Source of the DNA: Limnohabitans sp. T6-5
Lineage (GTDB): Bacteria > Pseudomonadota > Gammaproteobacteria > Burkholderiales > Burkholderiaceae_C
Reading direction: 5' to 3'
Assembly: GCF_003063315.1 (NCBI RefSeq)
Contig: NZ_NERV01000002.1
Coordinates: forward strand, 1,178,001 to 1,242,000
Length of the DNA: 64,000 nt
Each line of letters begins with the position of its first letter. The stretch's first letter is position 1. A model generated the notes under the pieces. It was not told the DNA's origin, made no database searches, and was given only the letters and a program-made list of their open reading frames with translations. Of this stretch, positions 29,235-31,453 are shown piece by piece. Made by a program: the position numbers and the translations under genes.

Positions 29235-30452
29235 GTGTACCGCGCATCCGATGAAACGATGGCTCACCTCATTGCAGCAGGTGAGTCTTATCGGTGCGAA
29301 TTCAAAAGTGACTTCTCCAGCAAAGGCGATGGCAAAGAAAAAATATGCCGCACGATCTGCGCCTTTGCCAACGACTTGAACGGGAATGAAGAGTTCGGCG
29401 TCATTGCCTTGGGTGTGAATGACGATGGCTCACCCTCTGGCCTGTCCATTGACGACGAGTTGGAACAGAAGGTTTTGTCGATTCGTGGCGAAGGGAAAAT
29501 CCTGCCTTTCCCCAGTTTTTTCACGGTGCGTCGCATGCATCTGGGCCAAGCTATTTTGTGCATCGAAGTACAACCCAGCATTTCCACACCCGTTAAATTT
29601 GACCAACGCATTTGGGTGCGTCCTGGCAACGTCACACACCAAGCCAATGCGGAGGAAGAACGCCGCTTGAATGAAAAGCGCCGTAACAAAGACCAGCCTG
29701 ATGACGCGCAAGTCCTGGAAGGTTTCCACATCCATGACTTGAATCTGGACTACTTCAAAAATCAATATTTGATGCAGGCCTTTGCACCTGATGTTTTGCA
29801 AGCCAATGGTCGTACGCAGGAAGAACGTCTGGCCAGCACCAAGATGGCAGGGCAAGGCCGAGATGGCGTGCTCTACCCCACGGTCTTGGGCATGCTGTGC
29901 TTGGGCTTGTCTCCTGCCGATGCGGTGCCCGGTGCCTATGTGCAGTTTGTGCGTTTTGCCGGTGACGACGAAACCAGTCCCGTTCTGGATCAGCAAGAGA
30001 TTCACGGCAACATTGCCGATGTCATCCAAAGCACCGAAGCCAAATTCAACGCCCACAACCAGATACCGATTGACTTCACTTCGCAAGACCGTGAACAGCG
30101 GTTTTCGCAGTACCCCAAAGTGGCGTTTCAACAGCTGTTTCGCAATGCCGTGATGCATCGCAGCTACTTTGGCAGCAATGCGCCCATTCGTGTTTATTGG
30201 TTCAATGACCGCATCCGCATCACCAATCCTGGTGGGCCATTTGGCATGGGCCTTGAAGAGTTTGGACAACCCTATGCAGTGGGCTATCGCAACCCGAATT
30301 TGGCTGGCGCATTGAAAGACTTGGGATTTGTACAGCGCTTTGGCGCTGGTATTGGCATTGCGCGCACCGAGCTGCACAACAACGGCAACCCACCGTTAGA
30401 ACTTGACCCGAGTGCCAACTACGTCAGCGTCACCCTGCGGCAACGACCATGA
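29235..30452 (+). CDS. AlbA/Schlafen-type putative DNA-binding ATPase-like protein inserted in the gat operon
   Basis: A 405-residue protein. The N-terminal AlbA_2/Schlafen-like domain (about 1-130) shows ESYRCEFKSDFSSKGDGKEK, CAFANDLNGNEEFGVIALGV and the IWVRPGNVTHQA block. The C-terminal part resembles the GHKL-like end of COG2865 transcriptional regulators (NAVMHRSYFG; IRITNPGGPFG; GFVQRFGAGIGIAR). The start is probably the GTG at 29235, one base after the gatA stop; the ATG at 29259 is possible. It overlaps the next gene by four bases. COG2865 proteins occur with ParA-like partners in accessory islands, some linked to defence. Its function here is unknown. The setting inside gatCAB is highly unusual. 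Confidence 0.82.
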   Translation: MYRASDETMAHLIAAGESYRCEFKSDFSSKGDGKEKICRTICAFANDLNGNEEFGVIALGVNDDGSPSGLSIDDELEQKVLSIRGEGKILPFPSFFTVRRMHLGQAILCIEVQPSISTPVKFDQRIWVRPGNVTHQANAEEERRLNEKRRNKDQPDDAQVLEGFHIHDLNLDYFKNQYLMQAFAPDVLQANGRTQEERLASTKMAGQGRDGVLYPTVLGMLCLGLSPADAVPGAYVQFVRFAGDDETSPVLDQQEIHGNIADVIQSTEAKFNAHNQIPIDFTSQDREQRFSQYPKVAFQQLFRNAVMHRSYFGSNAPIRVYWFNDRIRITNPGGPFGMGLEEFGQPYAVGYRNPNLAGALKDLGFVQRFGAGIGIARTELHNNGNPPLELDPSANYVSVTLRQRP

Positions 30453-31449
30453 CCAAACCCGTTTTTACTTTTTTCAACAACACGGGGGGCATTGGCAACA
30501 CCACCTTGGTTTATCACATCGCCCACATGTTTGCGCTCATGGGCGTGCGTGTCCTGGCGGTTGATGGCGATCCACAAGCCAGGCTCAGTGCCGCTTTTTT
30601 ACAAGATGAAGCGCTCCAGACGCTTTGGGACGATACGACTTGTGCGCAAACCCTTTACCGCGCCGTGCACCCCATGCTTCGAAAAGATGATTACGTCGCA
30701 CCAACACCCAAAGAGATCACGCCCAATCTGCATTTGATCGCGGGAGATCTTGGCCTGTCTTGTTTTGAAGATCCATTGTCCGAGCAGTGGTGCAAAGCCG
30801 ACGACAACAACGAAAACACCTATGGTCGAGCGTTGGATATATTGACCGCGTTTTGGCGTTGCACCCAAGAAGCTGCTGCAAACTGCCAGGCAGAGATCAT
30901 CCTCTTTGACATTGGGCCCAATTTGGGTGCCATCAATCGCTCTGTCTTGCTGGGCACGGACCATGTCATCGTCCCGCTGGGCGCTGATGTATTTTCTTTG
31001 CGCGGTTTGCAACACACCGGACCTGCTTTGCGCGAGTGGCGCAAATCCTGGGCCATCCGTAGCGCCAAACCGTTCAAGAAGTACACATTACCCAAAGGCG
31101 ACATGCATGTCCTGGGCTATGTCGCCATGCAACACCAGGAACGTCTCTCTCGACCCGTACAGGCGTATAAACAATGGATAGATCGCATTCCCGGCGACTA
31201 CCGCCAATACATTGAAGAAACAACAAGCGCGGATATTCCGAAAATTGAAGACGATTCCTTTGCACTGGCATGGCTGCGCCACTACAAAAGCATCATGCCC
31301 ATCGGACAAGAAGCACGCAAACCGATTTTTTCCTTAAAGACGGCGGATGGCGTCAGTGGCTCACAAATGGCCACCGTACGCGCCGCCTACGAAGACTTTC
31401 AAAATCTCGCCACACACATTCTGCTCAAAGCAAATCTCGCTCACCTTTT

Positions 31450-31453
<4 letters not shown>
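30449..31453 (+). CDS. ParA/MinD-like protein with a degenerate Walker A motif
   Basis: A 334-residue member of the AAA_31/ParA family. The fold is intact: Walker A region at residues 10-20, VRVLAVDGDPQARLS (switch I), IILFDIGPNLGAINRSVL (Walker B) and HVIVPLGADVFSLRG. The deviant Walker A, normally NKGGVGKTTL, reads NTGGIGNTTL: the signature lysine is threonine (ACG) and the P-loop lysine is asparagine (AAC), each one base from a lysine codon. ATP hydrolysis of the normal kind is therefore doubtful. It overlaps both the AlbA-type gene before it and gatB after it by four bases (ATGA), so all are translationally coupled. No parB or parS-like sequence was found nearby. Confidence 0.85.

Follow-up and report, generated by a model that had tools for sequence, protein, structure and literature searches.

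Schlafen-type RNases have been described as accessories of BREX systems (PMC12839542), and the Schlafen domain acts on tRNA, with residues E205 and E210 of SLFN13 required for tRNA cleavage (PMC5862951). Dyads of another kind, in which a HEPN gene (MAE_18760) is paired with a ParA/Soj-type gene, have been proposed as toxin-antitoxin modules (PMC3710099). These statements follow extracts of the three papers. The locus analyzed here combines a Schlafen-type protein with a ParA-like ATPase homologue, and we lean towards reading it as a defence-type Schlafen RNase/ATPase dyad, putative in function, that is lodged in an essential operon and leaves GatB to be made by re-initiation.

Gene order and composition of the gat locus

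The window is the whole stretch of DNA that was analyzed, 64,000 nucleotides from Limnohabitans sp. T6-5 (contig NZ_NERV01000002.1, positions 1,178,001 to 1,242,000 of the forward strand). It contains the gene order gatC, gatA, AlbA_2/GHKL gene, ParA-like gene, gatB, all on the + strand:

27470..27769, + strand: gatC, host operon; homologues 96-97% identical lie at the equivalent position in loci L069 and L070
27773..29233, + strand: gatA, complete, 486 aa, host operon; PF01425, 505.7 bits; aligns full-length in relatives
29222..29228, + strand: Shine-Dalgarno-like CAGGGGA within the gatA 3' end, 6 bases ahead of the AlbA-type start; duplex energy -6.5 for the 20 bases before that start
29235..30452, + strand: AlbA_2 (Schlafen-type) plus HATPase_c_4 (GHKL) gene, 405 aa, GTG start, putative RNase half of the dyad; PF04326, 59.9 bits against a curated cut-off of 25.3, and PF13749, 53.5 bits; E17/E22 kept
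30449..31453, + strand: ParA-like ATPase homologue, 334 aa, second half of the dyad; PF13614, 67 bits, and PF01656; Walker A degenerate
31450..32907, + strand: gatB, complete, 485 aa, sole copy; PF02934 and PF02637; without Shine-Dalgarno; start overlaps the ParA stop (ATGA)

The Pfam matches to gatA, both pair genes, and gatB are all above cut-off. The gatB start was taken as the ATG at 31450, which is homologous to that of relatives (the listed open reading frame from 31270 includes an upstream extension). One spare base separates gatA from the AlbA-type gene, and the AlbA-type/ParA and ParA/gatB junctions are each a 4-base ATGA overlap; the coordinates thus bear out the arrangement with 1-, 4-, and 4-base junctions that an earlier note had read from this DNA. 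The same note took the pair for a foreign cassette within an essential operon, and base composition supports this, with 52-53% GC (GC3 58-59%) in the pair versus 61-63% (GC3 80-81%) in the gat genes. The restriction-modification (R-M) pair that follows gatB has 43-45% GC (GC3 37-39%), and because GC and GC3 differ between the two pairs, they appear to be two separate foreign inputs. Another gatB copy elsewhere would have weakened the case, and the search of the genome gave one gatB match only. With this single match and a gene order shared by 10 other distinct genomes, mis-assembly or a second gatB is ruled out. Separately, the window's genome has, away from this locus, a remote ParA paralogue (26%) at G000:C2:284207-285154 and a remote AlbA-type paralogue (31%) at 411467-412546, and these two are not adjacent to each other.

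The two proteins of the dyad

The predicted model of the AlbA-type protein (pLDDT 82.8) matches 3LMM and the SAMD9 and SLFN domains, and it contains the fold of the SLFN/SAMD9 tRNase domain along with a GHKL ATPase. Two glutamates, E17 and E22 (an E-x4-E pair), are invariant in 27/27 alignment rows, and their equivalence to SLFN13 E205/E210 is judged by spacing. For SLFN13 D248 there is no invariant Asp at matching spacing; D47 is invariant but spaced differently. The wHTH model gave no match on the window's AlbA-type protein. From these sequence features, the putative RNase half looks intact in this genome.

The model of the ParA-like protein has a ParA/MinD-type P-loop fold and matches 3PG5 (DIP2308) and Soj. 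Walker A reads NNTGGIGNTT in the window versus the consensus NNKGGVGKTT, so that both lysines (signature and catalytic) are gone. The motif is intact in most relatives; it is also changed in two other gat carriers, G064 and G066, and in three non-gat ParA genes (L141, L155, and L161). Judging by this motif, the ATPase half has probably lost its catalytic activity in this genome, and the window's copy may be half-dead. Because the window's ParA has lost both Walker A lysines, the dyad may not work in this genome. PADLOC-DB 2.0.0 returned no specific model for the dyad, giving only pAgo/Aga models (25-43 bits) for the AlbA-type protein and nothing beyond one model at E 0.0074 for ParA.

Ten window genes were scanned (gatA, the pair, gatB, the type II R-M pair, Fic, an RHH-type gene, and CcdA/CcdB), and their Pfam hits include neither a ParB nor a HEPN family. 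The neighbors of ParA are the AlbA-type gene and gatB. These data bear on the reading of the pair as ordinary chromosome-partition or regulatory genes that are there by chance, which would fit the ParA/Soj fold and the names that source databases give to the parts, “chromosome partitioning protein” and “ATP-dependent DNA helicase RecG”. We regard that reading as highly improbable, given the missing ParB, the absence of any NCBIfam ParA/RepA model at cut-off for the ParA-like protein, and a constant AlbA-type partner (79/80 among the best 80 of at least 570 loci, below). Because the parts carry these names, the dyad is easily missed.

Occurrence of the dyad across bacteria

Homologue searches returned 3853 matches for ParA and at least 5719 for the AlbA-type protein. 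A contig scan with the ParA alignment found at least 570 relatives, from which the best 80 loci were kept. Among these 80, an AlbA-type gene lies upstream of ParA in 79, mostly with a 4-base overlap, and in a few loci the upstream AlbA match is only a partial gene. The phyla represented among the best 80 include Pseudomonadota, Planctomycetota, Acidobacteriota, Myxococcota, Cyanobacteriota, and Synergistota. The pair forms a two-gene module of wide distribution, unnamed in the family libraries that were searched, and in the literature covered (open-access PMC; preprints not covered) we recognized no description of a Schlafen-ParA dyad or of a gatA-gatB insert. No dyad match was found in 50,697 phage records, and the plasmid collection gave three matches only (∼34%); the record of one further locus, L163, is titled as a Cupriavidus plasmid.

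The flanks of the 73 non-gat loci among the best 80 of at least 570 contain genes with R-M, Hma, SNF2, or Fic cluster labels in 21/73 cases, or 17/73 without the Fic-only cases, as raw counts. The labels comprise type III methylase or restriction subunit, DUF1156/HmaB methylase, SNF2 helicase (HmaA/DpdE/BrxH-like), and SoFic; they derive from single-linkage clusters of which one to three members each were scanned, some other members being short fragments. The dyads of L157 and L199 are each flanked by an SNF2-helicase-type gene on one side and a DUF1156-methylase-type gene on the other. The other 52/73 loci have none of these labels, and some neighbors are housekeeping genes (e.g., aconitase and gyrase). 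Looked for beside defence genes away from the gat site, the pair has type III R-M, Hma-type methylase, or SNF2 labels in its flanks at 17/73 non-gat loci, and a defence-type role is plausible for the dyad family, given its Schlafen tRNase-like fold and the R-M/Hma genes near some copies. As a separate observation, a SoFic-cluster gene is present in the flanks of 6/80 dyads (L122, L123, L131, L133, L142, and L146), a possible association by raw count. In L146 this gene is directly downstream of ParA, and only the L133 member was scanned individually.

Distribution at the gat site

In the genus, a gatB match was obtained in 82/90 genomes and the junction was read in 80 (30 plus 50 loci), leaving out G098 and G113, which have gatB fragments only. 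The gat-resident pair occurs in 4/80 genus members (the window's genome, G064, G066, and G103), and gatA and gatB are adjacent at the remaining 76 junctions, separated by 0 to about 360 bases. This patchiness does not support the proposal that the position prevents loss of the cassette. A general insertion hotspot between gatA and gatB is likewise unsupported in the genus, as the 76 dyad-less gaps are too short for the pair.

In the family, ParA was found at E <= 1e-50 in 18/399 genomes including the window's; each of the 17 other loci has the AlbA partner (17/17), and in five of them gatB adjoins. The gat-resident dyad is therefore present in 6/399 family genomes with the window's counted, and the other 12 family dyads have no adjacent gat gene. 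Among 399 order genomes, ParA was found in 18 besides the window's, all outside the family, and neither gatA nor gatB is beside ParA in the 19 loci of these 18 genomes (flanks of ∼1.5 kb). The AlbA gene is missing in one of the 19 order loci, a short piece in one, and in pieces or partial in two. The pair is therefore not a housekeeping part of the gat operon throughout the order, as 0/18 order genomes outside the family have a gat gene beside ParA. Of the best 80 of at least 570 relatives, L121-L125 and L127, from named genomes, have the pair between gatA and gatB.

Overall, at least 11 distinct genomes of one family carry the gat-resident dyad, after merging of duplicates (L121=L085, L122=L069, L124=L203, and L127=L205=L274). 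Named carriers include a Limnohabitans sp. Rim8 MAG, Allofranklinella schreckenbergeri, and Paracidovorax cattleyae. The carrier L127 is a MAG titled Cytophagales, and with gat genes 63-82% identical to those of the window it is probably mislabelled.

This distribution is relevant to the idea that the dyad is a functional partner of GatCAB, which would monitor or edit tRNA in coordination with the tRNA amidotransferase and whose place in the operon would be adaptive. Although the Schlafen domain is reported to work on tRNA (extracts of PMC5862951) and most carriers keep tight junctions despite ∼45% AlbA identity, a partner present in just 4/80 genus members and 6/399 family genomes, with no gat gene beside the 12 other family dyads or the 19 order loci, seems very unlikely.

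Two further junctions deserve mention. The dyad-less L049 (G033) has, right behind the gatA stop, a gatB with the N-terminus MTAPKL that is otherwise that of dyad carriers, possibly a pre-insertion or post-loss state. At G079:C3:2069542-2071016 (a 3-contig genome), the gatB matches are fragmented and one fragment contains two TGA codons, either through sequencing error or because the gene is broken.

Downstream restriction and toxin genes

The following genes lie downstream of gatB in the window:

32927-34968: C5-cytosine methylase plus BsuBI/PstI-type endonuclease, directly after gatB
34959-36104, - strand: DUF4172-Fic
36812-37410, + strand: CcdA/CcdB

The R-M pair matches only the window's own locus (L039), and no match occurs in 29 further gatB loci of the genus, covered to at most 1.5 kb downstream, or in the longer carrier loci; for another 50 genus loci, coverage was of the upstream side only. 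From this and its own base composition, the methylase/BsuBI pair would be a separate recent insert. Fic and/or CcdAB genes are found downstream of gatB in 8/27 dyad-less genus loci (L043, L054, L056, L059, L063, L064, L067, and L068). One accessory island comprising the dyad with the restriction, Fic, and CcdAB genes is therefore ruled out, as the R-M pair matches none of the other loci covered and is of other GC and the Fic/CcdAB genes also occur without the dyad. The downstream genes, which had been taken to make a defence role plausible, do not serve as evidence for it.

Translation of gatB

Duplex energy is the pairing of the 20 bases before a start with the anti-Shine-Dalgarno sequence, in kcal/mol. 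For gatB it ranges from -2.0 to +1.9 in the 11 carriers, i.e., the Shine-Dalgarno is absent or very weak in 11/11. In 27 dyad-less loci of other genera of the family (from 29, one of which was itself a carrier and one of which had no gatA match), the median is -6.5 (range -11.5 to -2.0), and in 27 dyad-less genus loci it is -6.9. Among these dyad-less gatB starts, 42/54 are at or below -4.5 and 12/54 are weaker, the weakest (-2.0) equalling the best carrier; the start rule used here, the best in-frame ATG, can favor loci with longer gaps. At the homologous gatB start, the dyad-less genus loci have values of -10.0 to -3.0, with no overlap with carriers. Carriers differ from all dyad-less loci with a Mann-Whitney p of 1.9e-7, which overstates independence given the shared ancestry of the carriers.

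The ParA stop and gatB start overlap by 4 bases in 9/11 carriers, and gatB starts 16 (L204) and 7 (L125) bases after the stop in the other two. Since gatB has no good Shine-Dalgarno and starts at or near the ParA stop, GatB is probably made by re-initiation there; the coupling of gatB translation to the cassette claimed in the earlier note is thus probable, with no or a very weak gatB Shine-Dalgarno in 11/11 carriers. A good site at the gatA end precedes the AlbA-type start in the window and three genus relatives (-5.4 to -6.5) and also in L123 and L205 (-6.0); in the remaining five carriers this start has a very weak site or none. This gatA-end site precedes gatB in most dyad-less relatives and the AlbA-type gene in the window's genus, where the cassette, as far as sequence can indicate, seems to hold the former ribosome-binding site of gatB.

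History and transfer of the gat-resident dyad

In both the ParA tree (support 100/97) and the AlbA tree (100/99), a single branch separates the 14 gat rows (11 genomes) from the rest, which identifies the gat-resident dyad, on sequence grounds, as an old single-clade lineage in the family. The earlier note's description of the cassette as stitched into the operon holds insofar as the pair is foreign there; a recent stitch in this strain is ruled out by the one supported gat clade. Within this clade, L202 and L203 group with different gat relatives in the ParA and AlbA trees, and their alternative placements are rejected (p-AU 3.6e-5 and 0.0035, for groups named after seeing the trees). From this conflict, dyad partners were probably reshuffled.

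Synonymous divergence differs between the dyad and its host genes, although gat dS may be lowered by codon bias. Between G064 and G066 (L069 and L070), dS is 0.02-0.05 for the dyad versus 0.22-0.29 for gat; between the window and G064 it is 0.16 for AlbA, 0.36-0.39 for gat, and 0.90 for ParA; and for the window and G103 it is higher in the dyad (1.4-1.5) than in gat (0.5-0.6). In rpoB, 29 members of the genus are closer to the window than G066 is, at differences of about 2% (30/90 genomes, G103 among them, had no rpoB match). Of these 29, 28 are dyad-less at the junction and one has no gatB match, and the window's gat flanks are no nearer to carriers than to non-carriers. The gat-resident dyad is patchy and, judging from these comparisons, partly horizontal: a single lineage, adapted to the gat site, that recombination has carried between relatives and that most of them lack or have lost.

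In G222 (L296:4697-5240), ∼540 extra bases with small open reading frames lie between gatA and the AlbA-type gene. They hold a stop-terminated remnant of the gatB 5' end (residues 5-20, 62.5%, E 7e-4) upstream of the AlbA gene, possibly the footprint of an arrival at the start of gatB, with a fresh gatB start supplied downstream. At L070:8878-9207, in G066, gatB is followed immediately by a repeat of its final 330 bases; this repeat is ruled out as a transfer footprint, as 100% identity over 330 bases indicates tandem duplication or an assembly effect.

The state of the ParA gene raises the question of a passenger under decay, i.e., a pair functionless at the gat site that is kept in frame by gatB read-through and undergoes missense decay. 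The Walker A motif, which the window's copy has lost and G064/G066 carry in altered form, is degenerate in 5/33 gat-type ParA homologues versus 2/86 others (p 0.017; one incomplete row dropped), or in 3/31 versus 2/86 (p 0.12) once a near-copy and the mildest case are removed. Rough ParA branch dN/dS values, with dS near saturation, are 0.19 (window) and 0.16 (L069) versus 0.04 (L121) and 0.03 (L123). These ratios are still well below 1, however, and the AlbA-type protein is 96% identical between the window and L069, with a dN/dS of 0.12 and its glutamate pair kept, and we therefore find decay of the whole pair unlikely. Frame breaks number 0 in the 11 gat dyads and are few elsewhere too, which gives them no power as a sign of constraint.

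Proposed role

If the dyad acts in defence, infection or another stress would lead the ATPase modules to release or assemble the Schlafen domain, which would then cut tRNA or other RNA and stop growth, an abortive-type defence. At the gat site of the window's genus, the cassette would use the former gatB ribosome-binding site, and most GatB would come from termination-reinitiation at the ParA stop codon; a mutation that breaks the frame within the pair would then be expected to reduce GatB.

A toxin-antitoxin (addiction) module, with the AlbA-type RNase as toxin and the ParA-like protein as antitoxin, is possible though doubtful. It would suit a two-gene, mostly overlapping pair that joins an RNase-type fold to a ParA fold, and it has a precedent in the proposal for HEPN-ParA dyads (extracts of PMC3710099). 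An addiction module is harder to reconcile with the patchy presence in 4/80 genus members, and with the tolerance of a ParA without P-loop lysines. Both dyad proteins also exceed in size the partners of classical type II toxin-antitoxin modules, which are smaller.

Beyond a defence-type dyad with GatB made by re-initiation, the pair could be an undescribed Schlafen-RNase/ParA immune dyad wired into essential-gene translation via the ribosome-binding site of gatB, with guarding or addiction arising through operon architecture. We rate this as quite unlikely; if true, blocked translation of the cassette would also cut the tRNA amidotransferase and add to growth arrest. An essential gene would become dependent on re-initiation once a cassette holds its ribosome-binding site, and the gat-resident lineage is a natural test of an accessory cassette living within an essential operon. 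Because this lineage occupies the site in some close relatives and is absent from it in others, the questions of defence and coupling can be tested directly.

Comparison with known systems

The Schlafen proteins of Taboada et al. resemble the dyad in having an AlbA_2/Schlafen domain followed by GHKL, and some dyads are located within or next to Hma/DUF1156/type III R-M clusters. The dyad differs in its constant ParA-like partner, which the Schlafen extracts do not mention, and the window's protein has no wHTH match. The BREX-associated Schlafen accessory differs in its setting, as no BREX gene is among the ten window genes scanned. The HEPN-ParA dyad (extracts of PMC3710099) shares the combination of an RNase-type gene with a ParA-like ATPase, but the fold in the window is Schlafen and not HEPN. 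With the Soj/ParA partition ATPases, the second protein shares fold and P-loop family, whereas its neighbor is AlbA-type rather than ParB and the Walker A lysines are lost in the window. The closest solved structures to the two subunits are the structural-genomics entries DIP2311 (3LMM) and DIP2308 (3PG5) of Corynebacterium diphtheriae, which, at low identity to the window's proteins (18-26%), have neighboring locus numbers.
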